From the NCBI GenBank assembly GCA_037143175.1, contig JBAWZF010000032.1, positions 1 through 32,930 on the forward strand: 32,930 bases of DNA, given 5' to 3'. This document shows positions 2,458-20,219 of the stretch, piece by piece. Position 1 is the first letter of the stretch. Each line of letters begins with the position of its first letter. The notes under the pieces are model-generated. The model saw only the letters and a list, made by a program, of their open reading frames with translations. It had not been told where the DNA came from and ran no database searches. The translations under genes were made by a program, and so were the position numbers. Source of the stretch: a bacterium (GTDB taxonomy: Bacteria > Verrucomicrobiota > Kiritimatiellia > CAIKKV01 > CAITUY01).

Positions 2458-3396
2458 ATGAGCTATCCGGTTTTAATAATGGACGTTGCCAAGGCCGCGG
2501 GAGTCGCCAAATCGACTGTCTCCCTCGTCCTCAATGGCCATGGTAATTCACGCCGGATCAGCCCTACCACTCAGGAACGTATCCACGCCATTGTCCGCCA
2601 GATGGGGTATCAACCCGATCCAGCCGCCAGACATGTTGCCTTGGGAAACACTCCGTTCTATTACCCGGAATATCTGAAGGCGAGGGAGACGAGTCTTGAG
2701 TCGAAAGTCCAAAGTCCGGAGTCAATGCCCGAAGTCCCCTTGGATACCGGGCCGACGGAGCCTGCCACACCAAGCGAGACACTGGAACCAGTCGTCATTG
2801 AGGAGCCAATGCCGGAGTCGGTACCGGTTGCGGAGCCGATCGTCTTACCGGAACCGGTTGTCACGCCAACGCCAGCGACAGTCATCGAACCAAAGCCTGC
2901 GCCCCAGCCCGAACCCGTGACGGTGTCTGCTCCGGTCGCGGAAGAAACGCCGGGAGTGGTGATGGTGAGTCTCGAGTCGAAAGTCCAAAGTCCCGAGTCA
3001 ATGCCGGAAGTCCCCTTGGAGGCCGGGCCGAAGGATCCTGGCACACCAAGCGAGACACTGGAACCAGTCGTCATTGAGGAGCCAATGCCGGAGCCAGTGC
3101 CGGCGGCAGAACCGGTCGTCATACCGGAACCGGTTGTCACGCCAACGCCAGTGATAATCATCGAGCCAAAGCCTGCGCCCCAGCCCGAACCCGTGACGGT
3201 GTCTGCTCCGGTCGTGGAGGAAACGCCGGGAGTGGTGATGGTGAGTCTCGAGTCGAAAGTCCAAAGTCCAGAGTCAATGCCGGAAGTCCCCTTGGATACC
3301 GGGCCGAAGGATCCTGGCACACCAAGCGAGACACTGGAACCAGTCGTCATTGAGGAGCAAACACCGGAGCAGGTGCCGGTCGTCGCGTCCCAGTAA
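2458..3396 (+). CDS. LacI-type HTH head fused to Pro/Glu-rich 92-residue tandem repeats
   Basis: The N-terminal 60 residues are a standard LacI/GalR DNA-binding head: MDVAKAAGVAKSTVSLVLNG, a recognition helix, then a hinge-like segment ending in MGYQPDPAARHVA. The periplasmic-binding-protein-like sugar-binding domain that should follow is absent. After about residue 75 the protein is low-complexity, rich in Pro, Glu and Val, and built from 92-residue tandem repeats that each begin SLESKVQSPES. It is likely disordered. The start at 2458 is preferred because it gives a usual LacI spacing before DVAKAAG; ATG codons at 2440 and 2479 are alternatives. It could still bind DNA as a small repressor, or be a decayed LacI gene kept open by repeat expansion. 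It ends 26 bp before the distal end of the CRISPR array. Confidence 0.6.
   Translation: MSYPVLIMDVAKAAGVAKSTVSLVLNGHGNSRRISPTTQERIHAIVRQMGYQPDPAARHVALGNTPFYYPEYLKARETSLESKVQSPESMPEVPLDTGPTEPATPSETLEPVVIEEPMPESVPVAEPIVLPEPVVTPTPATVIEPKPAPQPEPVTVSAPVAEETPGVVMVSLESKVQSPESMPEVPLEAGPKDPGTPSETLEPVVIEEPMPEPVPAAEPVVIPEPVVTPTPVIIIEPKPAPQPEPVTVSAPVVEETPGVVMVSLESKVQSPESMPEVPLDTGPKDPGTPSETLEPVVIEEQTPEQVPVVASQ
2692..3396 (+). repeat. 276-bp tandem repeat inside the LacI-head gene (2.5 copies)
   Basis: Units start at 2692, 2968 and 3244, each opening with AGTCTTGAGTCGAAAGTCC or AGTCTCGAGTCGAAAGTCC. The period is exactly 276 bp (92 codons), so the frame is kept. The third copy is partial and ends at the stop codon. 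The unit start has the GAGTCGAAAGTCCAAAGTCC look of a short intergenic repeat, which suggests that an intergenic element was captured and then amplified with flanking coding DNA. Confidence 0.9.
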
Positions 3397-3422: not shown

Positions 3423-8043
<4,621 letters not shown>

Positions 8044-8049
8044 GCTTTA

Positions 8050-8078
8050 GTTATAACCTATTGCCGATAAACAGCCAA
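8050..8078 (-). promoter_or_regulatory. Candidate sigma-70 promoter of the CRISPR array
   Basis: On the minus strand, TTGGCT (8078-8073) is followed after exactly 17 bp by TATAAC (8055-8050). The -10 box matches the consensus at 5 of 6 positions and the -35 box at 4 of 6. A start about 7 bases downstream would fall at position 8043, the first base of the first repeat, so the pre-crRNA would have almost no 5' leader. Confidence 0.55.
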
Positions 8079-8086
8079 GAGCTACA

Positions 8087-8224
8087 TTTCCGCGAACCGC
8101 ATTGCGAATCGCATTATTGATTCAGTTTTCAAAGATCGGTCATTCGTAACTGACTGCGGTTCAGTCGATTAAGAACAGCGCGAATCGCCTTAGGGAATTT
8201 CTGCTGAATGCAGGTTCGCGGAAA
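8087..8224. repeat. 12-bp inverted repeat bracketing the leader
   Basis: TTTCCGCGAACC at 8087-8098 and its exact reverse complement GGTTCGCGGAAA at 8213-8224 flank most of the leader, 114 bp apart. This is too far for a terminator hairpin. It may mark a protein-binding pair, for example for the integration complex, or be the ends of an inserted element. Confidence 0.6.
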
Positions 8225-8229
8225 CGAGT

Positions 8230-8520
8230 TTACACCACCAGTGGCCCTTCCAAATCTACTGCCGGCTTTGCGCCGACATGTTCTACCCGGTGCTGCCAAT
8301 TCGCCCCGAGGAAATAGTATCGCAGACTATCCTCATTCGGGTCAGCAGCGGTCTCAAGTCGATGCCGACACTCGGCCCATTGGGCGGGATCCACAATGCA
8401 CTCAAACACCGAATTCTGAACCCGCTGGCCGTAATCCAGACACACTTTAGCCACCCGGTTCAAACGCCGCTTTCCTGCCGCCGTTGTTGTGCTTACGTCA
8501 TAACTCACTAGAACCAGCAT
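8230..8520 (-). CDS. cas2: CRISPR-associated endonuclease Cas2
   Basis: A 96-residue ferredoxin-fold protein of the Cas1-Cas2 spacer-integration complex. It opens with the family pattern MLVLVSYDVSTTT (the conserved Asp of beta-1 is D8), continues with RRLNRVAKVCLDYGQRVQNSVFEC and ends in the I-C type tail LRYYFLGANW. Length is normal. It is the last gene of the operon, next to the leader. A GGAGG at about 8520-8525, read on the minus strand as AAGGAGCCTCC, precedes the ATG. The 46-bp gap to cas1 holds a repeat element. Confidence 0.95.
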   Translation of the reverse strand: MLVLVSYDVSTTTAAGKRRLNRVAKVCLDYGQRVQNSVFECIVDPAQWAECRHRLETAADPNEDSLRYYFLGANWQHRVEHVGAKPAVDLEGPLVV

Positions 8521-8566: not shown

Positions 8567-9598
8567 CTACTTCCACACAAAAGGAGGATAGCCATCCAGA
8601 TCTCCGCGCAGAAATCTCGCCATTAATAATGCCTGTAAATACATCAATAAACCAACCGGTGCGGTTTCCCCAATAAATGGGTGCTGGATTTCCTCCTGTT
8701 TCCGTTTTTGATATGCCACCAATAATTCCTTTCGGGTCTCATCCGTCATCTCTACAGCACCGGACTCAGTTTTCTTGAACCCTTTCCCTTGCACCTGCTT
8801 TAGATTTACGAGCGACAAAGCCAAACGGTCAGCTAGAAAAGGCCGGAACTCCTCCATAAGATCCAAGGCCAGACTTGGTCTACCCGGCCGGTCGGCATGA
8901 AGGAATCCCACCTGGGGATCCAGCCCCACAGAATGCAAGGCAGAGGCAGCATCGTGAGCTAAAAGCGTGTAGATAAACGATAGCAGGGCGTTCATATTAT
9001 CGAGAGGGGGGCGTCGACTTCGACATTTAAAAAAGAAATCGTCTTTTTGAGCCGTGATCATGTGATCGAAGGCCTCAAAATAGGTATTGGCTGCATCCCC
9101 TTCCCGTCCGCGCAAAACGGCAAGGTCCGTCTCCGTCTTAATGGTATCCAAGAGCACCCCCAACCGTCTTGCCGAGCGCTCAATCTCCTCGATCCCTGAC
9201 TTTCCCTCATGATCCCGTGCGGCCCTCATGAGAACAGACCGGCAATTGACGACTTTCGCCAACACGATTGATCGGGCTATCTCCACGCAGCGCTCCGGTA
9301 AATCGGCACGGCGGTATTGTTCCCGTCGGAGCAGCACATTCCCTGAAACCGGCCCCTCCACCCGTGCCAGAAAACGTCCCTGTGCTGACAGAAAACTGAT
9401 CGCCACTCCACGCTCACTGCAAAGATGCATAAGTGAGGGACTACATGATACTTGCCCGAACCCGACGATACCTCCGAGTGTATGAATGGGAATGCGAAGT
9501 TTGGTTTCCTTTTCCACTCGCACCAGGATGGCCTCACCCTCATGGCAAAGGTAAGCCCCTTGAGTTGTCACAAAAAGAGTATTGAGCAGCTTTTTCAT
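8567..9598 (-). CDS. cas1: CRISPR-associated endonuclease Cas1 (type I-C)
   Basis: A 343-residue integrase of the spacer-acquisition complex. The beta-rich N-terminal half is followed by the helical catalytic half with the conserved metal ligands: E166 in GREGDAANTYF, H234 in GFLHADRPGRPSLALDLMEEF and E249 in the same block. The I-C form MKKLLNTLFVTTQGAYL is recognisable at the start. Length is normal and no catalytic residue is missing. Its ATG overlaps the TGA of the four-helix-bundle gene by four bases (ATGA at 9595-9598), so the two are probably translationally coupled. Confidence 0.97.
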   Translation of the reverse strand: MKKLLNTLFVTTQGAYLCHEGEAILVRVEKETKLRIPIHTLGGIVGFGQVSCSPSLMHLCSERGVAISFLSAQGRFLARVEGPVSGNVLLRREQYRRADLPERCVEIARSIVLAKVVNCRSVLMRAARDHEGKSGIEEIERSARRLGVLLDTIKTETDLAVLRGREGDAANTYFEAFDHMITAQKDDFFFKCRSRRPPLDNMNALLSFIYTLLAHDAASALHSVGLDPQVGFLHADRPGRPSLALDLMEEFRPFLADRLALSLVNLKQVQGKGFKKTESGAVEMTDETRKELLVAYQKRKQEEIQHPFIGETAPVGLLMYLQALLMARFLRGDLDGYPPFVWK

Positions 9599-10119
9599 GA
9601 TGGAATCGGAGCGCCACCGGCACGCTCCGCCTTTAACCGCGCAAGTAGAGCATCCTGATCACGTTTAAGCTTCTCTGTAAAAGTAGAGGCTCTTTGTTTT
9701 TGCTGGTAAGACTCCTTGGATTGTTCGGTAAGGTAACGAGGCCCCTTGATATCGCCTTCTTGAAGAGATGTTGCCCAGGCAGACAGTTGTCGGGAAATGG
9801 AGGTGGCAAGTGATATGAGATCTGATATCTGAGATTTGAGATGATTGAAATACGGCAAACGGTCGATGACGTGGCAAATTGAACGCACCTCACCGGCGGA
9901 GCCTTTAGCGTAATACAGAAACGTGATCAGTTCCGGCGTGGTGCCGCGCTCAAAACCCTCGGCGATATTATTGGGAACTGACAGAGCGGCGCGCTGGATC
10001 TGGTTTGCGATATCCCCTTTAAAGCGAAAATCCTTATCATCAGTCAACCTGAACACTTGCGCCGTCATTTCAATGCCAGCCTGCCAGACCGGCACATCTT
10101 CGAAGTTTTTGTATCGCAT
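9595..10119 (-). CDS. Four-helix-bundle protein (S23/IVP-like) inside the cas operon
   Basis: A 174-residue protein. Residues 1-122 match the small four-helix-bundle family first seen in 23S rRNA intervening sequences: YKNFEDVPVWQAGIEM, then DIANQIQRAALSVPNNIAEGFERG (about 36-60), then FLYYAKGSAGEVRS. The function of the family is not settled; relatives serve as nucleic-acid-binding accessories. After residue 122 there is a charged, probably coiled-coil tail (EQSKESYQQKQRA onward) not usual for the family. Residues 93-103 (HLKSQISDLIS) are encoded by an intergenic-type repeat inserted in frame. AAGGTGA precedes the ATG. It is not a standard I-C gene but sits between cas4 and cas1 on the same strand and overlaps cas1 by four bases. 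Confidence 0.8.
   Translation of the reverse strand: MRYKNFEDVPVWQAGIEMTAQVFRLTDDKDFRFKGDIANQIQRAALSVPNNIAEGFERGTTPELITFLYYAKGSAGEVRSICHVIDRLPYFNHLKSQISDLISLATSISRQLSAWATSLQEGDIKGPRYLTEQSKESYQQKQRASTFTEKLKRDQDALLARLKAERAGGAPIPS
9811..9845. repeat. ISDLKS-type repeat within the four-helix-bundle gene
   Basis: The stretch TGATATGAGATCTGATATCT followed by GAGATTTGAGATG consists of the same short units as the intergenic copies. Here it is read through as HLKSQISDLIS. Confidence 0.65.
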
Positions 10120-10130
10120 TTATTCACCTT

Positions 10131-10165
10131 TCATCTGAGATTTCAAATTTGAGATTTGAGAATGA
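10131..10165. repeat. ISDLKS-type repeat between cas4 and the four-helix-bundle gene
   Basis: Units CATCTGAGATTTCAAATTTG and AGATTTGAGAATGAG span the cas4 stop codon (10143-10145). The last residues of Cas4 (ILKSQI) are encoded by the repeat, which also lies just upstream of the ribosome-binding site of the four-helix-bundle gene. Confidence 0.7.
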
Positions 10166-10799
10166 GCACGCCAGCCAAATACCGAGCAACGGTTTGATTT
10201 GCAGCTAATTTCTTTGGCAGACACACATTTATAAGCGAGCAATGGTCGCATTTGGGGGCATATTGAGCAGGCGGGGTTTTGCCGGTTTCGATCAGAACAT
10301 GTAGCCGCTGGGCTGTTTGGATAGTCAACGCCCGCAACGGTTCGTCGAAGTTTACATCTTGTCGTCGGTGGGTAGTCCCATAGAATAAGGCGCCTGCGGG
10401 AATGGTCACGTCCAGCATCTCTTCCAAGCACAAAGCTTGAGCGCAGAGTTGCACCTCATCAGAATGATCCGCTTTAGGCTTGCCCCGCTTATATTCCACA
10501 GGAAAGGGCTGAGGGGGCGATTTAAAATCTGAAATATGAGATACCAGATGAAATTCCACCACATCCGCCATTCCTACCAAGCCAAGCCGAAGGGAACGAA
10601 GACGAAGACCACGGGCAATACGGATGCCTGGCCGGCTTTCGGAAGTCTGTTCATGAACACGCTCGTGCATGTTCTTGCCTTCTACCGTCAACCGGTTCTC
10701 CTCCCAGACATGCTCAATATGGATCAAAGCACACTGCCGTTCACAGAACAGCAGGTGCTGGAGCGCGGAGATCGGAAGCAGTTCTTCTTCGGGATACAT
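10143..10799 (-). CDS. cas4: CRISPR-associated exonuclease Cas4
   Basis: A 218-residue RecB-family nuclease with an iron-sulfur cluster that trims prespacers and selects those with a PAM. The four cluster cysteines are C19 (LFCERQC) and C184, C187, C193 (CDHCSLINVC). Nuclease motifs are H45, D79 (GMADVVEF) and E102-x-K104 (PVEYKRGK). A short insert, SHISDFKS (residues 87-94), lies between the D and E-x-K motifs and comes from a repeat copy. The last residues (ILKSQI) come from a second copy. All catalytic residues remain, so the enzyme may still work. The ATG shares one base with the TGA of the Bro-N gene (TGATG at 10797-10801), which indicates tight coupling. Confidence 0.95.
   Translation of the reverse strand: MYPEEELLPISALQHLLFCERQCALIHIEHVWEENRLTVEGKNMHERVHEQTSESRPGIRIARGLRLRSLRLGLVGMADVVEFHLVSHISDFKSPPQPFPVEYKRGKPKADHSDEVQLCAQALCLEEMLDVTIPAGALFYGTTHRRQDVNFDEPLRALTIQTAQRLHVLIETGKTPPAQYAPKCDHCSLINVCLPKKLAANQTVARYLAGVLILKSQI
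10515..10548. repeat. ISDLKS-type repeat inside cas4
   Basis: GATTTAAAATCTGAAATATG followed by AGATACCAG is read on the minus strand as LVSHISDFKS. It lies in the loop between two nuclease motifs of Cas4 and keeps the frame. Confidence 0.65.
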
Positions 10800-11650
10800 C
10801 AGGTCTTCAATCTTTTATCGGCCTCTTTTTTCCGCAGATAATTCTGACTAGAGACAATCGGCCGTTTCAGCCGCTTCTCCAACGCCTTGCGTGCATCGCC
10901 AGCGATGCGCCCACCAGCCTGGGCATCCGCTTTCAGTTTAGGAACTCCTCTCGAATCTTCCTGGCGATGGATTTCAGTCGTCGACCTTTCCCCCAACATG
11001 CTGAAAATCAACTCGAAATCATCCATATGATCACGCAGGTTTTCGCGTTTGAGCCCTTTGATTTTTTTGTACTCCAAGGGAGTCACGCCAAACGCGGCTT
11101 TGGATATTTCCGCCGTAAGAATTTCGTAATCCGTATCCTCAGCGGCACCCCGCTTCTGCCATTCGTCCGTCAGCTCCTCGCGGATTGCGATACCCCGCAT
11201 CCGCTTTTCGATCCAATCGTCACTGTAGCCTTTGAGCTTATACAGTAAGCGGGTTCGCTTAGTGGCCAATTCAGGATTTTCGATCTCCTGGACACGCTCG
11301 AAACCGACCTTCGCAAGCCAGCGTTTGAACGGCTCAGCTTTGGGCGATGGGATGGACTGGATAATACGAAAAACACCCTCTGCATTGGCGCAGTCGGTCT
11401 CGTATCTTTTGCCATCCGCCGACTCAAGTTTCAGTTGTAGACAAATTGTCGACAACTGAACTCCTGCCTCATCCTTTTCCCGGATTTTCATTTTGGACCA
11501 GTAGTCACGGGGGTTCACACTATCCGTGAGGGCCGCCACCACATCCACGACCGAAAACCACCATTCATTGTCATGAATGATTCGCCGCACCTGCTTGCCC
11601 TTAAAGACAGCCAGCGGGGCAGCAGGGACGATCATTTCCTTCTTTGCCAT
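10799..11650 (-). CDS. Bro-N domain antirepressor-like protein embedded between cas7 and cas4
   Basis: A 283-residue protein with an N-terminal Bro-N domain, as in phage antirepressors and DinD-like proteins: FKGKQVRRIIHDNEWWFSVV, then DVVAALTDSVNPRDYWSKMK (about 10-60), then GVFRIIQSIPSPKAEPFKRW (about 105-125). The conserved long C-terminal part follows (YSDDWIEKRMRGIAIREELT, then FGVTPLEYKKIKGLKRENLR). Length is normal and the gene is intact. The start at 11650 is chosen because GAGGAG stands 7-8 bases upstream; the frame is open further up but without a site. Bro-N proteins are known DNA- or repressor-binding factors and are not a standard part of I-C loci. The gene follows cas7 by 42 bp and overlaps cas4 by one base, so it is expressed with the operon. 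Its role in immunity is unknown; a regulatory role is inference. Confidence 0.85.
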   Translation of the reverse strand: MAKKEMIVPAAPLAVFKGKQVRRIIHDNEWWFSVVDVVAALTDSVNPRDYWSKMKIREKDEAGVQLSTICLQLKLESADGKRYETDCANAEGVFRIIQSIPSPKAEPFKRWLAKVGFERVQEIENPELATKRTRLLYKLKGYSDDWIEKRMRGIAIREELTDEWQKRGAAEDTDYEILTAEISKAAFGVTPLEYKKIKGLKRENLRDHMDDFELIFSMLGERSTTEIHRQEDSRGVPKLKADAQAGGRIAGDARKALEKRLKRPIVSSQNYLRKKEADKRLKT

Positions 11651-11692
11651 ACTTTTCTCCTCAAATAGACACCCTGTTACAGGCGGCAATTT

Positions 11693-12607
11693 TTAGGGCA
11701 TTTCAATGACGGAGACACCGGCAGGCAATGCTGATTTATCGATCGCCAAGGCATAGTCCGAGAAACTACGGGCCGGTTTGTTCTCATCTTTACGCTTAAG
11801 AGTAACCCGCTCAAATAGTTTATGAGCCTGTGCATTACCGAGAGCGCTATCGTGTTTGAATATTACCAGCCTCTGGGTTGCCATTAGCCCACGTGCGGCC
11901 GACCGGTCATGTTCGAACATATTAACCAATGCATCCCATAACAGCTTGAGGTCTTCTTCTCCAAAACCGGTTTGGTTAGCCAAATGGGCGGAAATAAACC
12001 CGTGGGAAACATAAACGCCATAAGGCACAGTGTTTTTCCGGCCCATTGTACGGTTATCACCACTTTGCTTTTCAGCATCCGCCTCCGTTGTCACAGCCAT
12101 ACGGGTGATGCAGTGCTCTAATGTCACAACAGGATCAACCGAACGCCCAAAAGTAAATTGAACCGGTCCACGGACTTGACCTGCATTAGCACCTGTGGAC
12201 ATCACGGCACCAAATGCGCGAATATCGAAGTAATCCGAACACATTTGTGTCCGCACCTTATCCACTTCCTGACCTTGCCCAACACCTTTTTCTTTTCGCG
12301 TTTCTCCGTCTTTCTTATTGGCTGGCGTTTTCTCCAAATCAATTTCTAAAGTTTCGTATGCACCATTGATGAGCCTGTTCAGCACAGCTTTTTCCTTAAC
12401 AAAGATATCATAGCCTTTTGATAAATTTCGTGTCATTTGCACAAAGTTCCTGATCTTTCTCTTGAGGCAAACATCCGTGACGAGACCTTGTCCGGATTCG
12501 GCGTCAATACGCGGCAGATTGCCCGCATCAGGGTCACCATTGGGGTTTCCATCCTGCACATCAAAGATCAATACAAAGTCATAACGATTCTTTACTAGGG
12601 TACTCAT
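11693..12607 (-). CDS. cas7: Type I-C Cascade backbone protein Cas7 (Csd2 family)
   Basis: A 304-residue RAMP-fold protein that polymerises along the crRNA. The Csd2 signature is clear: [20 protein letters not shown] near the start, [11 protein letters not shown] (about 46-56), [14 protein letters not shown] (about 127-140), [10 protein letters not shown] and [13 protein letters not shown]. Length is typical of the family. The ATG overlaps the TGA of cas8c by four bases (12604-12607). Downstream, 42 bp separate it from the Bro-N gene, where a normal I-C operon would have cas4. Confidence 0.96.
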
Positions 12608-14418
12608 GTTTTCTCCTTATTTGGTTGGTCTTGTTTTTCTTTCTTAGTGTAGAAATCCTGCATCTGGTGATAGTAGCCGATTGCAAATCTTCCCTGATCA
12701 TCCAACTTGAGATGCGGGGGAAAATCAGCAATTCCGGACATAATCTCACCTATCAGTCGCTCGCAATTGATCCGTTCGCCAACATTTTCAATGCCTGCAA
12801 GATGATGTTTACTTAATCGAATTAATGTTCCAAAAACAGATGCTGGCGTTCCCGACGCCGCACCATAGAATTTATCCCGAATTGTGGAATTTGGTTCTTT
12901 CCCACCGTTCTGAGTGAACTTCCTAATTTGAATTTTCTCAAGCGCGGCAAACAGTCGCCCGAGCCGATAGCCGATATTCATATTAACTGTATCGAGACTC
13001 ACTTTCAGTTCCTCCTTTGTTTGTTGGTTTTCAGATCTAAATTTGCGATTTAGACAAGCTTTTATGAGCGAGGCACGCTCGTAAGTCACATTGGGCAATA
13101 ATTTACCGGTTATTTTGTCTTTTTTCCCTTGCTCGACGCGAATACGCCTAATAGCCGCCTGCAACAGCGTTTGCGGATACGGTAGTCCTTCGAGAATAGC
13201 CCGTATCGTATCACCTGCAAGGTTAGGCGGAATATTTTCCGCTTTCCCTTGGGTAGCCGTGGAAACCAGCAAACGAAAAAGCGCAACGGCATCCTTGTCC
13301 TTTGGTCCATGCGCAATCCGAATATCATCGAAATGATGCCTGACCTTAGCTGCAATTTCAGCCACTGTTCCTCGCAACCAGAAGCGAACGGCAATGCGGG
13401 CCGCGTTTGGTGACAGACCCAATACATAAAACGTTATTCGGTTATCATCCGTGACATAAGCACCATTATGTGCAGATTTGTAGAGATTTTTGACAGCATT
13501 CACTAAACGATCTGGATCATCTTTGGGCGGCTCCCCAAAGAAATCAGCTACCAGCATTTCAAAGTTATCGTCTTTTGCGCTCCAAAAGATAGTCGTGGCA
13601 TCGCCGATCTGGATACGCTGACGCGAATCACTTCTCAGTAGGTGATTGAGTACCGTTGTGTAGGCGAAAGATGCTGACTTCCCTATGGGAGAGTTTCGCC
13701 CTTGCTCTTTCGAGAATGACGAAAATGCAGGCACTGCCCCTGCGTTCACGCCGTTTGAAACTTTGTTATTTACTGACACTAGGCTGGCACCCATTGGATT
13801 CGCGCCGCGAACACCACGAATCGGAGGTTCCAGAACTACAATTTCATCTTCCTCCCCAGTAACCAAACAACGCCCTCGAACACCCTTAGGTGTTCGCGAC
13901 ACATCAATCAAATTGCGCAATTCAGCATCGTCAGTGACAGGCCCACGCCCCTCTATCGCCAAAAGAAGAGACTGATTCAGATCAAGAACATCCTGCCACC
14001 TCGCCACACGCTGGATCGCTTCAACATCTATTCGTTCAAGAAAAGAACGAACAGACCTTAGGGTTCCGCAATCGCCTACAATTGCTTCTACACGGTGCCG
14101 GAACATAGAATGCTGTTCCCGAACACGTTCAGGGTCAGGCTTTCTCTCACCTGTTGCTACTGGAATCCCAAACAGGTACTCGATGTTTTCCCAAAAGAAA
14201 TTGGCCTTGATTCCATTGCCCTTCTTTTCGCCTAGAGAAGGAACAAGAAACTCTTTTGCACGCAGTCGCTTTCCGTCAGACTCCCTCGTGTCTTGAAAGC
14301 AAACAAAATCACCATTTTCTTTGATCACTACCAAGAATGGGATGGCTTTCCGCTCCCAACCTTCCCGGGGTAGATCCGGCTTCCGATCGTAATATTCCTT
14401 CAACGCTTGCAGGATCAT
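12604..14418 (-). CDS. cas8c: Type I-C Cascade large subunit Cas8c (Csd1 family)
   Basis: A 604-residue large subunit that recognises the PAM and recruits Cas3. It has the Csd1 features [11 protein letters not shown] at the start, [20 protein letters not shown] (about 57-76), the LVTGE-like block [29 protein letters not shown] in the middle and [14 protein letters not shown] near residue 485. The C-terminal [16 protein letters not shown] is also typical. Length is usual for Csd1. The start overlaps the cas5c stop by four bases, and the stop overlaps the cas7 start. In I-C systems the gene can also yield the small subunit (Cas11c) from an internal start; I could not locate one with confidence. 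Confidence 0.95.
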
Positions 14419-15140
14419 TTGCGCACCTCCTCGCTGTCGAAAGCCGGAACCATAATGACGCCTTCTTTCATTTCGACCCGGAAAAACATCGGCTTAATGT
14501 CCTTCGGATCAGAAAAATCAAGATCATAAAGCATCCAGCCCAAATCACGAGTTTCTGGGACTGGAAGAGGAGTTTCCATTTCATTGATCGAATCAACCAA
14601 AGTGAACGCACAGGAGAATTCGCGGCAGCCGAGATAGGGTTGGTTGAAACACTGCCCTTTTTTGGCTCTTCGCTCAAACATGGCGGCGTACTTTGCCTCG
14701 GTTTCGTCTGTGCGCACATCCGGCTTCTTAAACTCTAGTACCTCCTCGGGATCTACCAACCATTCCGGCACTGGATTCATACCCCTTCCCCTATTATCCG
14801 GCGAAATAAATTTAAATTCAGCGTGAAGCCGGTACTTTACGTCACGCAGAATGAGCCCGGCACGTTGTTGGCGGGTTTTCCCATCATCAATGAAGATACC
14901 CTTTGAACCTGGCGACGCCACCTTCCCGACTTCATTCCTTCGGACTGACGCCCATCGAATAGGCGATAGCACTTCTATTTTTTTTATTTGCCACCGGATA
15001 GTCGGCTTCCACAAAATAGCGTCAAAGATTGCACGGGCCGCCGATGGAGTGATGACATCATAACTGACGCGCTCAACCTTCATCTCAGGCCTTGTGAAAC
15101 AGGCGAATTCACCACTGACTTCCAGACAAAAACCTTTCAT
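14415..15140 (-). CDS. cas5c: Type I-C Cas5 (Cas5c/Cas5d), crRNA-processing subunit
   Basis: A 241-residue RAMP protein that in I-C systems replaces Cas6: it cuts the pre-crRNA below the repeat hairpin and stays on the 5' handle. Family blocks are FCLEVSGEFACFTRPEMKVE at the start, ARAIFDAILWKPTIRWQIKK (about 35-54) with IEVLSPIRWASVRRNE after it, and CFNQPYLGCREFSCAFTLVD (about 163-182). AAAGGTGA stands at a proper distance before the ATG at 15140. It follows cas3 by 25 bp and overlaps cas8c by four bases. The GC-rich 7-bp repeat hairpin is its expected substrate. Confidence 0.95.
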   Translation of the reverse strand: MKGFCLEVSGEFACFTRPEMKVERVSYDVITPSAARAIFDAILWKPTIRWQIKKIEVLSPIRWASVRRNEVGKVASPGSKGIFIDDGKTRQQRAGLILRDVKYRLHAEFKFISPDNRGRGMNPVPEWLVDPEEVLEFKKPDVRTDETEAKYAAMFERRAKKGQCFNQPYLGCREFSCAFTLVDSINEMETPLPVPETRDLGWMLYDLDFSDPKDIKPMFFRVEMKEGVIMVPAFDSEEVRK

Positions 15141-15165: not shown

Positions 15166-17328
15166 TCAAACGATCAAATCCTCTGGCGCACGACCTGCAC
15201 CAAAAATATCCAGGCCAATTACCCCGTCATATTTTCCTGTCCAACACCAGAAATCTTTGCCAATTTCCTCCAGCAAACCGTCAGCCTTGGCCTGATTGAA
15301 TGTCCGCATAGACAGGTTGACTGCGTAACGCTGCAACCGGCGCATGTTCTCACGAGTCGGCCCGACAATACGAAGTTGATCAAGCCATTTGGCGCTAGCT
15401 CCATAGCGGACAAAAACGGGTTGCTGAGCCTGATCATCGATAAACTGGAAATTTTCTGCAGCTGTTCTGAATTGGAAATGGAGATGCGGATTCACATCTT
15501 TTATCAGCCAGTCAGCGAACCGGCTTCCCGTATCATTGACTCGGGAATAAAATAGCGCAAAATATTGTGCAAAGACTTCAACCCTATGTGGATCAAACCC
15601 CTGCATTGAACACAATTCCCTGGTCGTATCTTCGCCTTTACGAAGTAGACCCGATGGTGATGACTTTGGTGGCACAAATACATGAACCTCCCCTTTTGCC
15701 CGCCGCCCTTCGCGATTACACCGACCTGCCGCCTGGGCAATTGAATCAAGCCCGGCAAGAGCGCGGTATACCACAGGAAAATCAATATCAACCCCAGCCT
15801 CAACCAGTTGAGTACTGATAACACGTGTAGGCAATCCATCATTCAGTCTTTGTTTGATATCAGCAATAACCGAGGAACGATGCTCGCCACACATCAGTGC
15901 GGAAAGATGGATTGTTCCCTCCGGCATAAACCTGAAAAGATCATAACAATCCCGACGTGTATTCACGATACAAAGGACCTGTTCGTATTGCTGGAGGCGT
16001 TTCGCCAATTCCCCCCATTCAGTCTTTACCTTGAGATCTGGAAGTTTGAATTCCGTCCGCTTCAACCGATTATACAAATCCAAGGTGGCGGGTATAATTT
16101 CCCGGGGTGGATCGATTTCAGGAAGAGCTGGCTGGGTGGCTGTCGAAAGCACCATGGTAACCCCATAGTTCCGGACAAGTTGATTCATCACATCTACACA
16201 AGGAGCCAAAAGCGTCGGCGGTAAAAGCTGAGCCTCATCGAGAATTACCACGCTATCGACAATGTTGTGAAGCTTGCGACACCGCCCCGCCTTGGCCGCA
16301 TAAAGTGACTCAAAAAACTGCACGTTGGTTGTTACAATGATTGGCGCATCCCAGTTTTCGGCAGCTAATCTCCCCCGCTGTGTCTCTCGCTCTGGATCCA
16401 AGTTACTGTGATGCTCAACCACATTTTCCGCCCCAAAGATATCGGCTAAAGTCTGAGCGGTTTGCTCAATAATACTTGTGTAGGGAATAACATAGATGAT
16501 TCTTCGTTTCGCGAGCCTCACCGCGTGATCCAAAGCAAACGCCATTCCTGACAGGGTTTTTCCGCCACCAGTTGGAACAGTGAGTGAGAAAAGCCCAAAG
16601 TCTTGTTTGGCAGCGTCACGGCATGCGGCAAGAATTTCCTGGCGTATCTCGTTTACAGGCGTCTTTTTTGCATTCTTAGTTTTCTCACTCATGAAGGCAT
16701 CAAACAAGGGCTTAAGTTCAACCAGCGCCTTGAAACCCCTCCGGATTTGAGGTTGCGCAGGCTGCATAAATGCTTCGGTATCTAAAAAGTCAGCATCCAC
16801 AAGGCAGGAGAAAAGCATTCTAACCCAAAGATGGAAATCTGACGGCTTAACAAATTTCGGAGGCCGAGGCGTTGCGCGAAAGTTTTTTCGAATGGCCGTC
16901 GTATATTCTTTGATCCTAGCTAAATTTTCACGGCCCTCATCCATCCGTATCGAAAGCGCAGCATTTCCGGTTTCATTGGCATCCCAATCAGGTAACCCTG
17001 CGTGATGGCCAGCAGCGATATAGGCAAGAATACGACCAACACATGCGCCCATACTATCCTCTGCCAAGGCTGCACCAGCAGAAGAATGATTAATTCGACC
17101 AGAATCATAATTTGCATCATCAAGCCCATTTTCACGCAAGAGATACCCTTGAAATATCGAATCGGCTTTTCCAAGATCATGTATCCAACCTGCATTCCAC
17201 ACCCAATTAGCAGACTCGAAAACCCCTGCGAACTCCGCCGCCATTTTCGCCACACCCTGCAAATGTTCATCCAGACCCTGCCACTCTTCCACTGGCCGAT
17301 CTTCTTTGCTATGTGCGTAATATTTCAT
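15166..17328 (-). CDS. cas3: CRISPR-associated nuclease-helicase Cas3 (HD-DExH)
   Basis: A 720-residue enzyme that degrades target DNA after Cascade binds. The N-terminal HD nuclease has H22, H50-D51 (IHDLGK), H81 (INHSSAG) and H108-H109 (GHHAGLPD). The superfamily 2 helicase follows: Walker A TGGGKT (253-258), the DEAH-box equivalent DEAQ (364-367), STATQ (395-399) and motifs V-VI as TQLVEAGVDIDFP with QAAGRCNREGR. All motifs are present in one polypeptide, as usual for I-C. The gap to the upstream regulator gene is only 33 bp and is filled by a repeat, so transcription probably comes from the regulator promoter. Confidence 0.97.
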   Translation of the reverse strand: MKYYAHSKEDRPVEEWQGLDEHLQGVAKMAAEFAGVFESANWVWNAGWIHDLGKADSIFQGYLLRENGLDDANYDSGRINHSSAGAALAEDSMGACVGRILAYIAAGHHAGLPDWDANETGNAALSIRMDEGRENLARIKEYTTAIRKNFRATPRPPKFVKPSDFHLWVRMLFSCLVDADFLDTEAFMQPAQPQIRRGFKALVELKPLFDAFMSEKTKNAKKTPVNEIRQEILAACRDAAKQDFGLFSLTVPTGGGKTLSGMAFALDHAVRLAKRRIIYVIPYTSIIEQTAQTLADIFGAENVVEHHSNLDPERETQRGRLAAENWDAPIIVTTNVQFFESLYAAKAGRCRKLHNIVDSVVILDEAQLLPPTLLAPCVDVMNQLVRNYGVTMVLSTATQPALPEIDPPREIIPATLDLYNRLKRTEFKLPDLKVKTEWGELAKRLQQYEQVLCIVNTRRDCYDLFRFMPEGTIHLSALMCGEHRSSVIADIKQRLNDGLPTRVISTQLVEAGVDIDFPVVYRALAGLDSIAQAAGRCNREGRRAKGEVHVFVPPKSSPSGLLRKGEDTTRELCSMQGFDPHRVEVFAQYFALFYSRVNDTGSRFADWLIKDVNPHLHFQFRTAAENFQFIDDQAQQPVFVRYGASAKWLDQLRIVGPTRENMRRLQRYAVNLSMRTFNQAKADGLLEEIGKDFWCWTGKYDGVIGLDIFGAGRAPEDLIV

Positions 17329-17340
17329 TCTTTCCCCAAT

Positions 17341-17378
17341 TCTATCTCATATCTGAACATCTCATATCTCATATCGCC
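17341..17378. repeat. ISDLKS-type repeat between the XRE regulator gene and cas3
   Basis: Units CTCATATCTGAACATCTCAT and ATCTCATATCGCCGC fill the gap and encode the last residues and stop codon of the regulator (YEI then stop). It is the most upstream of five copies in the cas operon. Confidence 0.65.
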
Positions 17379-18549
17379 GCAGGCGTTCCCCAATCTCCCT
17401 CGCCTCTTCCGCCGTCTCGGGATTCCTTGACGCAATCAACAGCAGATCGCCCAGCCTGCCATTGGGCGATAATACCCGCCGGGTCGCGTCGGGCTCGCCA
17501 TACGCTGTTTGCTGATAGTGCGCTGCGATCTTTGTGCGCAATGCGTCTGCCCCGGCTTTGTCGATCAGGTTTAACTCGCCTAATCTCATCAGGAAGGCCT
17601 GCGCCGATACCCCGAACCGATGCTTGAGCCGCAATAACAACTCATAGTTCCATTCATCCGGCTTGACCCCAAGTTGCATGACACTGGCCCGAACCGACGA
17701 TGCCGGCATCAGGAATAATGCCGCAAACTGGCGCGCCACATGCAGATCGTCCAAAGCCCCGGCCTCGTTGGCCGGCAACTGTCCATAGACCCGCCGCGTG
17801 AACATGTAAATGGAGCCTAACCGCTTGATAAGCTCAAATAACTGCCGCTCCACGTTCAATCCATTCCGCACAATTAAAAACGCGTTGGCATTCCGAGCAT
17901 CGTAATAGGCTACACTTTGAATTTTATCCGGCAGCGGACAGAACACCACGCGCAATCCGGCATTCTCAAGCAACTCCAGATAGTCGAATATCACCGCCTG
18001 TCCAATCCCCAGCACCTGCCGAACCTGCTGCGCCCACATCTCTACACCTTCAACCGTGCGCGAAAAGGGAACGTAGAGCGGAATGTGCGCCCGCTTCTGC
18101 GCCCCACATAAATCTTCAAGTGCCAGGAATGCTTGCATAACTTGATCCACCATCACCCGGCCTGCTTTGTCCAACGGCGTATCGTCAGGTAATGACGCCA
18201 TAACCGCCATGGGCCATTGCGTTCCCTGCTGCGGAACGTTGTACTCAGCCGATTCGGCTACATAAAGCGGCATCCCTGATGTGCCACCGCCCGCCCCGCG
18301 CTGCTGGCCCACGCCCAGTAACGAATCCACACTCGTTTCTAAAACTTCAGCTAAGCGAAATAACACCCGCCCAGAGGGGATATGATGGCCATTTTCCAGG
18401 GCATTCATGGGCCCTGTCCGAATTCCAATACGACGTGCCAGTTCTGCCTGTGTAAGATGATTAACTCGGCGTAATGCCTTGATCCGCAACCCTATATCCA
18501 CTCCCAGCGGATCATTTGGATGGTCAGACTTGTCTGATTCATTGTTCAT
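17362..18549 (-). CDS. XRE-family regulator with degenerate ImmA/IrrE-like domain, head of the cas operon
   Basis: A 395-residue protein. Residues about 18-80 are an XRE/Cro helix-turn-helix (IKALRRVNHLTQAELARRIG, then GPMNALENGHHIPS). The C-terminal half has the layout of an ImmA/IrrE metallopeptidase, including FAALFLMPASSVR (275-287). However, the HExxH zinc motif expected near residue 242 reads LIKRLGS (240-246), and the Glu expected before the FAA block is also missing. It is therefore probably not a protease and may use this domain as a sensor or for dimerisation. It lies 33 bp before cas3 on the same strand, so it may be the local regulator of the cas genes. An 18-bp palindrome overlapping a TTGACA box lies 27 bp before the start codon. 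No clear Shine-Dalgarno sequence is seen. Confidence 0.75.
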   Translation of the reverse strand: MNNESDKSDHPNDPLGVDIGLRIKALRRVNHLTQAELARRIGIRTGPMNALENGHHIPSGRVLFRLAEVLETSVDSLLGVGQQRGAGGGTSGMPLYVAESAEYNVPQQGTQWPMAVMASLPDDTPLDKAGRVMVDQVMQAFLALEDLCGAQKRAHIPLYVPFSRTVEGVEMWAQQVRQVLGIGQAVIFDYLELLENAGLRVVFCPLPDKIQSVAYYDARNANAFLIVRNGLNVERQLFELIKRLGSIYMFTRRVYGQLPANEAGALDDLHVARQFAALFLMPASSVRASVMQLGVKPDEWNYELLLRLKHRFGVSAQAFLMRLGELNLIDKAGADALRTKIAAHYQQTAYGEPDATRRVLSPNGRLGDLLLIASRNPETAEEAREIGERLRRYEI

Positions 18550-18575
18550 GTACTAATTACTACAGATTAAGGCTG

Positions 18576-18593
18576 TATCATGTCAACATGATA
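18576..18593. promoter_or_regulatory. 18-bp palindrome, candidate operator of the XRE-cas operon
   Basis: TATCATGT-CA-ACATGATA is a perfect 8-bp inverted repeat around a 2-bp centre. On the minus strand it contains TTGACA (18586-18581), a perfect -35 box, but the -10 partner (TAGTAA after 18 bp) is weak. A protein bound here would block the promoter. The size and symmetry fit an XRE-family dimer site, most simply for autoregulation by the adjacent gene. Confidence 0.6.
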
Positions 18594-18640
18594 TTTATGA
18601 AAACAAAAATGAGGCCATCCAAATGTTTTAAACTGCGGCC

Positions 18641-19831
18641 TCACCCCTGTAGGTACGCATCAATTTCGCTGAAACGCGTGATGTCTTGATTTGGGACACC
18701 GGTAGCCGTGAATGCTTCCTTCCAGCCCGCCACGGCTTCAAATACCTGTGCGACCACTAATTCTGGATTTCGAATTCCCCACCGCGTCCCCAGTTGCTCA
18801 AGTTTTTTCCGTCCGGGATAAAAGGCATCGAGGTCGAAAAACAAAATATGCTCTCTTCTCCTCCCCACGTCGGGGATCAGATCGAATGCCGGTGAGAGCC
18901 GCCACCCCTGTTCGCGGTCATGAACCATCCAAAAATTCTTCAAGTGGTCATCCGTGTTGCCCACGACAGCGTTAAAAACCATCTGACGGTAAAGCCGTTC
19001 AGCATCAACCAAGGGGTCATTGCTGTATTTTCGCACGATGGCCAGTAACTCCTGGTACCGCAGCTGATAGAACCCATGGGCTTTCAGCAAAGTCTGAAAG
19101 CTGATCATATGTCGGCGTCCGGCAGGGATGATATCGAATCTTTGAACCAGCAGTATCGATTTGCCTGAGCATTGGACAAGCTTGGTACAGGGAACGGGAA
19201 GACCAGCCCTGGCCGCCAGATTCATGATGGCGGCCTCGATTTTCACCACATCGACCTGATCGATAACACTCGGGAATTTGGCCAGATAGTGACTGTTGCT
19301 TTCCTCATCTACCACCACGGCTTTGGGGCGCGCCCCACCGGGCGAACTGCCAGCGCTCAGAAGAAGCGAGAGACCTGAATCCAGACTCTCGCCACGCTCG
19401 AACTTCTCAGCCGCCTCGACAAGGTCAGAGAGGTAGAGCGTTGAGATTTCAGCCGCGGCAGGGGGCGGCTTTTCATGATCCGTGAAAGACAAGGCCCCTA
19501 GTCCTGTGTTCCCCAGGGCAAGAAGTAGATTCGGCAAATTTTGTGCATGCCGAGGGATCTGATGTTTACGGACTAGAAGATTGCGCCCCCAGTCATCGGG
19601 AAGACTGTCTTCAAAAACACCGAAAATGCCAGGGAGTTCAATCGAAAATGAATCAGACTTCAGGGGAAGAGAGACCGGATCCAACGCAAAGGCGTCATCC
19701 CTCTCCAGATAAGCATGCTCATACCGAAATGCACTTCTTGCCCGTCCACTTTCAACAATTTCGCAGACCATCTCACCAACGGGCCGATGATCTCCGTTTG
19801 ATCGATCCCAAACCCTGATCCGGTAGATCAC
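18641..19831 (-). CDS. hipA: HipA-family serine/threonine kinase toxin
   Basis: A 396-residue HipA-type kinase. The N-terminal subdomain contains the family stretch LPDDWGRNLL (78-87). The ATP-binding loop is SSPGGARPKA (162-171), with the autophosphorylatable serine in or next to it. The ATP lysine is K185 (YLAKFPS). The catalytic loop is NTDDHLKNF (D294, N299) and the metal ligand is D317 (SPAFDLIPD). All kinase residues are intact. HipA toxins phosphorylate translation factors or tRNA synthetases; the target here is unknown. The start overlaps the hipB stop by four bases (ATGA), the usual arrangement. Its neighbourhood next to a CRISPR locus suggests a defence or stress island. Confidence 0.92.
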   Translation of the reverse strand: MIYRIRVWDRSNGDHRPVGEMVCEIVESGRARSAFRYEHAYLERDDAFALDPVSLPLKSDSFSIELPGIFGVFEDSLPDDWGRNLLVRKHQIPRHAQNLPNLLLALGNTGLGALSFTDHEKPPPAAAEISTLYLSDLVEAAEKFERGESLDSGLSLLLSAGSSPGGARPKAVVVDEESNSHYLAKFPSVIDQVDVVKIEAAIMNLAARAGLPVPCTKLVQCSGKSILLVQRFDIIPAGRRHMISFQTLLKAHGFYQLRYQELLAIVRKYSNDPLVDAERLYRQMVFNAVVGNTDDHLKNFWMVHDREQGWRLSPAFDLIPDVGRRREHILFFDLDAFYPGRKKLEQLGTRWGIRNPELVVAQVFEAVAGWKEAFTATGVPNQDITRFSEIDAYLQG

Positions 19832-20124
19832 CTTGTCCTCCTCGATGCCCGTCTGGGTAGCGGAGTCTTCATCTGATCATATTTGGCGAATAGGTCTTCT
19901 GGCGCGGCAAGAATAGCCTCTATATCTCCAGCACGGTCGAGAACCTCCAAGGCCGTCACCCAGTGTCCGACCAAAACGGAGGGATCTCCGGATTCCATTT
20001 TCCGGAGGGTTGGCACACTTATCCCGATCCTGGCCGCAAATATGGCCTGGGTATCGTTCCGCCGCAAGCGCGCATCCCGCAACCTGAGACCAAGACTATG
20101 CAATTTTATGTTACTTTGGACCAC
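19828..20124 (-). CDS. hipB: HipB-like XRE antitoxin
   Basis: A 98-residue protein with a single helix-turn-helix: LRLRDARLRRNDTQAIFAAR, then IGISVPTLRKMESGDPSV (about 13-51). The C-terminal helix ends in a basic tail RRASRRTR. It is the expected antitoxin and autorepressor of the hipA kinase, with which it overlaps by four bases. The frame starts at a GTG (20124); an ATG at 20129 is out of frame. Palindromic AT-rich sites lie immediately upstream. Confidence 0.88.
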   Translation of the reverse strand: MVQSNIKLHSLGLRLRDARLRRNDTQAIFAARIGISVPTLRKMESGDPSVLVGHWVTALEVLDRAGDIEAILAAPEDLFAKYDQMKTPLPRRASRRTR

Positions 20125-20134
20125 AGCATCACCA

Positions 20135-20195
20135 CATAATTGAAATTATGCTTTCCATAATTGCGCAAATATCTAATTAAAGCAAATTATAATTT
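20135..20195. promoter_or_regulatory. Candidate hipBA operator cluster (CATAATT half-sites)
   Basis: CATAATT-GA-AATTATG (20135-20150) is a perfect 16-bp palindrome. A third CATAATT half-site lies at 20156-20162, 21 bp from the first, which is two helical turns. A separate AAATTATAATTT palindrome lies at 20184-20195. On the minus strand, TTGCTT, 17 bp, then AATTAT is a weak promoter overlapping this cluster. The layout fits autorepression by HipB. Confidence 0.5.
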
Positions 20196-20219
20196 CCTTT
20201 ATATGTCAACCAATAAGCC

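Follow-up and report, generated by a model that had tools for sequence, protein, structure and literature searches.

Layout of the locus

The window, by which we mean the whole stretch of 32,930 nucleotides analyzed here, carries on its minus strand a complete type I-C CRISPR-Cas locus headed by a gene for a putative regulator. The following genes and repeats were assigned.

17362..18549, minus strand: XRE (HTH_3) plus degenerate M78/IrrE-like regulator, 395 aa, HExxH changed to KRLGS (profile searches, alignment, and model)
15166..17328, minus strand: cas3, 33 bp downstream of the regulator
14415..15140, minus strand: cas5c (profile match)
12604..14418, minus strand: cas8c/csd1 (profile match)
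11693..12607, minus strand: cas7/csd2 (profile match)
10799..11689, minus strand: Bro-N protein inside the cas operon (profile match)
10143..10799, minus strand: cas4 (profile match)
9595..10119, minus strand: 23S_rRNA_IVP four-helix protein, between cas4 and cas1 (profile match)
8567..9598, minus strand: cas1c (profile match)
8230..8520, minus strand: cas2 (assigned by position and similarity to the cas2 of relatives)
3423..8043, plus strand: CRISPR array, 71 repeats (repeat search)

An earlier interpretation made from the DNA letters alone (the sequence-only reading) had placed the regulator gene 33 bp before cas3 on the same strand, which we confirmed (17362-18549 versus 17328). From the regulator to cas2, the successive gaps are 33, 25, -4, -4, 3, -1, 23, -4, and 46 bp, and a scan of positions 17000-18900 revealed no promoter-like or terminator-like site. 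Gaps of at most 46 bp and the negative scan both support the proposal that the whole operon is under common control. The scan missed the regulator's own promoter, described below, because the -10 box of that promoter is poor.

Several other elements were found in the window. A HipA/HipB pair lies directly upstream of the regulator on the same strand (18641-20124), with a separate palindrome before hipB (20178-20201). Short ATATGAGAT-type repeats, one of which makes up the regulator gene's 3' end, occur in gaps of the cas operon (8532, 9813, 10133, 10520, and 17341-17375), and the 23S_rRNA_IVP gene overlaps cas1 by 4 bp. At 2691-3380, three 138-bp units that are at least 91% alike and spaced by 276 bp lie in a proline-rich ORF, the start of which resembles a LacI-type HTH. 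The possibility that a CRISPR-repeat-like element close to the promoter acts as a regulatory RNA was rejected, as the window has no repeat outside the array.

A degenerate M78 domain throughout the regulator family

Pfam searches located an HTH_3 domain at residues 23 to 76 of the regulator (PF01381, 35.9 bits against a gathering score of 23) and a Peptidase_M78 domain at residues 195 to 323 (PF06114, 37.3 bits against a cut-off of 22), so the XRE/M78 domain layout is kept, as had been claimed. An AlphaFold2 model built with 40 aligned family members had a mean pLDDT of 88.7 and a pTM of 0.86. Its N-terminal domain matched P22 c2, SinR, C proteins, ImmR, and CapH in the PDB; VIA-align gave Z scores up to 13.4, with an rmsd of 0.9 over 66 residues, in a list of mostly HTH domains that says little about the M78 part. 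The HTH_3 match and the lambda-repressor-like fold assign the protein to the XRE/HTH_3 class. For the M78 part, the best Foldseek matches in the PDB were CapP (top) and IrrE; PprI, an IrrE ortholog in complex with single-stranded DNA (ssDNA), ranked 6th, and MtPrpR appeared from the 9th place on.

The regulator resembles the M78 profile but carries KRLGS instead of the HExxH zinc/catalytic motif. An HMMER alignment to IrrE set the KRLGS residues on HExxH, in agreement with the replacement noted in the sequence-only reading; in the family alignment, ERQRFTLAHEISHA stands opposite ERQLFRLxxELGRI, and the window's counterpart is LFELIKRLGSIY. The Glu of IrrE "ETLCN," which we take to be the third zinc ligand, is aligned with a Leu in the window's protein, at a position that varies in the family.

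A search of 146 related genomes yielded about 26 relatives that were full length or nearly so, and scanning species genomes with an alignment of those relatives yielded 61 loci from Kiritimatiellae, Lentisphaerae, other Verrucomicrobia-type MAGs, and Desulfobacterales. Pooling and removal of near duplicates left 61 proteins, the window's counted (60 further members). HExxH was present in none of the 61, versus all 6 outgroup M78 proteins from related genomes. Among the 55 members readable at the motif, the first His was never kept and the second His was kept once, while the Glu persisted in 44; the window's own clade, with KRLGS or KRLGA, lacks the Glu too. Since HExxH is absent across the family, its loss would be ancestral rather than a decay in one genome. 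With the zinc site lost throughout the family, the M78 domain is predicted to be one that cannot cleave by the M78 mechanism, and the view of the regulator as nonproteolytic thus gains family-wide support from sequence comparison. A profile search found no second M78 protein in the window's genome (95% complete), so that an ImmA/CapP-like protease is unlikely to cleave the regulator in trans.

None of the Pfam, NCBIfam, and PADLOC models names the family, and we found no description of it in the article texts searched. Altae-Tran 2023 (PMC10910872) reports putative regulators associated with CRISPR loci, and the family may already be listed there. We found no relatives in viral contigs or phages, and on plasmids just one, a Bradyrhizobium protein with 27% identity.

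A palindrome over the regulator promoter

Upstream of the regulator gene, the following features were assigned.

18576..18593, minus strand: putative operator O1, TATCAT-gttgac-ATGATA, centered on the -35 box
18581..18586, minus strand: -35 box TTGACA within O1, starting at -37 from the start codon
18559..18564, minus strand: probable -10 box TGTAGT, 4/6 matches, 16-nt spacer
18544..18561, minus strand: weak putative second operator O2, AGTAAT-tagtac-ATGAAC, 9/12 matches, over the start codon

O1 had been described as a perfect 18-bp palindrome that covers a TTGACA box. It consists of TATCATGT-CA-ACATGATA (18576-18593), so the two 8-bp arms are indeed perfect, but the 2-bp center is asymmetric and the element is not a strict 18-bp palindrome. 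Its minus strand reads TATCATG-TTGACA-TGATA and does enclose the TTGACA box. From the placement of the -10 box, transcription in the window probably starts at the ATG or a few bases away.

A random palindrome with two 8-bp arms and a spacer of at most 6 bp is expected in the 91-bp gap between hipA and the regulator with a probability of about 0.017, so the window palindrome taken alone is only suggestive; it gains significance because it recurs in relatives. The O1 palindrome is the sole exact copy in the whole 3.3-Mb genome; the window holds no other match within 3 mismatches. A search for further copies had been suggested, especially near the CRISPR leader (8044-8229); neither the window nor the genome search gave an exact one, and the one-mismatch hits of the operator search were a site within cas7 (12406) and a single site on contig 69. 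The uniqueness of the operator is in line with a dedicated function, as is the finding that the commonest downstream neighbors across the family are cas genes. We also considered the palindrome as a terminator of hipA and rejected this, as it is AT rich, is followed by no T-run, and lies in a region (17000-18900) with no terminator-like site.

A conserved dyad upstream of regulator genes

We searched the 61 upstream regions exhaustively for dyads with 5-bp arms and spacers of 0 to 10 bp, without using the window palindrome. The top dyad, TTCAT-N6-ATGAA, occurred in 18 of 61 regions versus 0.98 expected from shuffles, and in 60 shuffled sets no dyad reached more than 12; because members are related, such counts are not fully independent, and the positives are spread over several clades. 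The window palindrome has the geometry of this dyad with one position changed per arm. Extended matches of at least 11/12 preceded 10 of 61 regulator genes and none of 426 other genes from the same loci (Fisher P = 5e-10), with an AT content of 0.59 in the regulator upstream regions versus 0.50 in these controls; composition-keeping shuffles predict 0.17 regions at this threshold. In L040, which at 72% identity is the nearest relative, the two arms have changed in concert, giving ATTAAT-gtttac-ATTAAT at -43. The dyad recurs at two positions, near -43 (O1) and at -12 (O2), about 31 bp or three helical turns apart, and O2 scores higher in relatives than in the window. Between the regulator and the next gene, the best scores of relatives were at background, giving no indication of a second operator there.

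The promoter is conserved as well. Of the 61 regions, 28 have a perfect TTGACA, in most cases at -35 to -37, whereas 1.0 would be expected; of the 38 members whose box matches at 5/6 positions or more, 31 have it 35 to 37 bp upstream of the start codon. With this spacing, transcription starts on the ATG or beside it, and the mRNA probably has no leader. O1 would thus probably lie over the -35 box, and O2 over the -10 box and start codon, of a near-leaderless promoter. A strong copy of the consensus (at least 10/12) is absent in about 70% of members, so that specificity may have drifted or some start codons may be misplaced; Desulfobacterales members show the dyad weakly. The family-wide dyad, with the same geometry and centered on the -35 box, supports the suggestion that the regulator is autoregulated.

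Genes headed by the regulator family

At least 28 of the 61 members have cas genes downstream on the same strand; in one more locus (L131), cas3-cas5-cas8c is divergent from the regulator, and 8 of the remaining members stop at a contig edge within about 0.5 kb. The subtypes headed are mostly I-C, along with I-G (L076, L101, and L103, with Cas8g1/Csx17 in L101 and Cas8g2, Csb1, and Csb2 in L076), I-B (L130, Cas7/Csh2), and loci with an I-E-type Cas3 (L090 and L094); two further loci are led by Cas6 or cas1 (L121 and L112). The I-C, I-G, I-B, and I-E-type Cas3 loci are interleaved on the regulator tree, so regulators have been either exchanged between subtypes or inherited across subtype changes. 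In many loci, the gap from the regulator to the next gene is -22 to 33 bp, too short to leave room for a separate promoter. Co-occurrence with cas3 over the 146 genomes was uninformative, as the helicase profile matches most genomes, controls included, below the cut-off.

Some members are found in other surroundings. The nearest relative of the window protein (L040, G004) is not beside cas genes, and a few members (L099, L100) have other defense-rich surroundings. A derived clade (L107, L108, L118, and L125-127) heads not cas genes but a gene of 404 to 409 aa for an MFS-type transporter, an identity that rests on Pfam in one of the six (L127) and on shared length and position in the other five.

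Accessory genes have been inserted repeatedly between the regulator and cas3, where Bro-N (L075), HEAT repeats (L078, L083, and L089), RlaP (L116), and a YhcG/DUF1016 nuclease (L081, identified through Pfam matches of the duplicate locus L046) are found; from length and tree position, L102 probably carries YhcG/DUF1016 as well. Bro-N recurs beside or within regulator-headed operons at varying positions (the window, L067, L075, L101, L109, L120, and L056). Between L075 and the window, Bro-N is 81% identical and the regulator 60%, so that Bro-N may have moved more recently or may evolve more slowly.

Proposed mechanism and alternatives

Taking together the domain architecture, the loss of the catalytic motif, the operator/promoter geometry, and the recurrent place before cas genes, we consider it quite likely that the regulator is an autorepressor of the cas operon it heads, acting by operator occlusion and equipped with a dead M78 sensor. 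In the mechanism that we infer, the XRE domain would bind O1 as a dimer, through half-sites TATCAT/ATGATA lying 12 bp apart center to center, and cover the -35 box; some relatives would have a further site bound as well, about 31 bp off, over the -10 box and start codon. Binding would shut the single promoter from which the regulator and the cas genes are presumably cotranscribed.

It is unlikely, in our estimate, that the regulator is instead an activator or dual regulator of the restriction-modification (R-M) controller type, which activates at low and represses at high levels through paired sites. Several members do have paired sites about 31 bp apart, XRE proteins can activate (R-M controller proteins do, and MtPrpR is regarded as an activator), and the HTH fold matches C.AhdI (Z score of 13.4), although tied with other XRE domains. 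However, dimers on O1 at the -35 box and on O2 at the -10 box and start codon should exclude RNA polymerase, and activator sites usually lie upstream of -35.

We give still less credence to the idea that the regulator is an antitoxin of the RosmerTA (RmrA) type that, with an adjacent toxin, guards the cas genes without regulating them. RmrA is an XRE-protease antitoxin (PMC10440598), it provided the best PADLOC matches (E = 9e-21, over the M78 region), and a HipBA pair lies just upstream of the regulator. Yet the similarity does not extend to the whole protein, only residues about 158 to 347 matching RmrA models; there is no constant partner, the next gene being mostly cas3 and otherwise varied (Bro-N, YhcG, HEAT, and RlaP); and relatives of HipA/HipB were not detected at the other cas-linked loci. 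The position of the palindrome just after hipA, and the probability of about 0.017 for the palindrome alone, could also mean that it belongs to HipB of the upstream pair or arose by chance. This appears highly improbable, as a dyad of the same geometry precedes the regulator genes of relatives without detected HipBA, and the sequence upstream of hipB (20178-20201) is a different palindrome.

Under the autorepressor reading, the dead M78 domain would most likely serve as a sensor or oligomerization domain, and a ligand would loosen the repressor. Candidate ligands include ssDNA, nucleotides, CoA-like metabolites, and antirepressors, of which the Bro-N protein could be one. As no protease is expected to act in trans, we favor a cI-like autorepressor whose release is gated by a ligand or partner. 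Bro-Xre pairs have been proposed as regulators (PMC2701414), and for this reason, together with its recurrence as a neighbor, Bro-N may be a partner; as an antirepressor or as cargo, it is only a lead. The term "switch" used for the cas operon in the sequence-only reading may be apt as an interpretation, and, with relatives of the same layout heading several CRISPR types in two bacterial groups, the arrangement looks like a recurring on/off switch. More tentatively, and with more doubt than confidence, the family could be a CRISPR-specific class of immunity controllers carried between I-B, I-C, I-G, and I-E-type operons, in which the dead M78 domain senses a ligand of infection or DNA damage.

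Relation to known systems and significance

The best precedent for the dead M78 domain is, by analogy, MtPrpR, an XRE protein with an IrrE-like domain in which HExxH is not conserved and a cavity binds CoA (PMC6765138). Like MtPrpR/RamB (ScfR), the regulator combines an XRE domain with an IrrE-like fold devoid of the zinc motif; in contrast, carbon metabolism is what PrpR controls, and its C-terminal region holds a [4Fe4S] cluster. The RamB model NF038139 gave 14.7 bits against a cut-off of 700, on the HTH only, so by score the regulator is not a ScfR/RamB protein.

In CapH and CapP, XRE and M78 parts likewise control an immune operon (CBASS and others) near its promoter, but there CapH is cut by CapP, an active protease and a protein of its own, whereas the regulator is one protein with no active site, and the window's genome, at 95% completeness, holds no other M78 match to act as CapP. 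CapW/BrxR and CapK+CapS, according to the accessible text of PMC13373217, likewise place the gene for a repressor at an immune operon's promoter, in diverse systems; their domains (WYL and STAS/GHKL, respectively) are unrelated to those of the regulator, and the systems named in that text do not include CRISPR-Cas. Its position and the conserved dyad would place the regulator in the functional class of controllers of adjacent immune operons.

Among proteins tied to CRISPR, RtaC and RtbC of I-F3 transposons are XRE proteins that control a CRISPR-bearing element; unlike the regulator, which is found with stand-alone type I cas operons and has an added M78-like domain, they regulate transposition in Tn7-like elements. 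As described in the available parts of the respective papers, CasR of M. tuberculosis is a cas regulator whose targets are a 20-bp palindrome in the casR promoter itself and the promoter of csm6 (PMC9953421), but it is a TetR protein, and the archaeal Csa3 regulates cas genes and is otherwise unrelated (PMC10013973); neither is described there as a family heading several type I subtypes.

Apart from a few model systems, little is settled about whether CRISPR-Cas operons are kept silent until infection turns them on, and about the signal. Because this regulator family repeatedly heads cas operons of several subtypes and has a compact promoter with a defined operator, the question can be tested directly with a single protein and about 60 bp of promoter DNA. 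Alongside PrpR/RamB, the regulator would provide a second case of a protease fold turned into a regulatory domain. Under the more tentative reading of a CRISPR-specific controller class, CRISPR-Cas in these bacteria would be kept silent by a one-protein repressor and switched on by infection.
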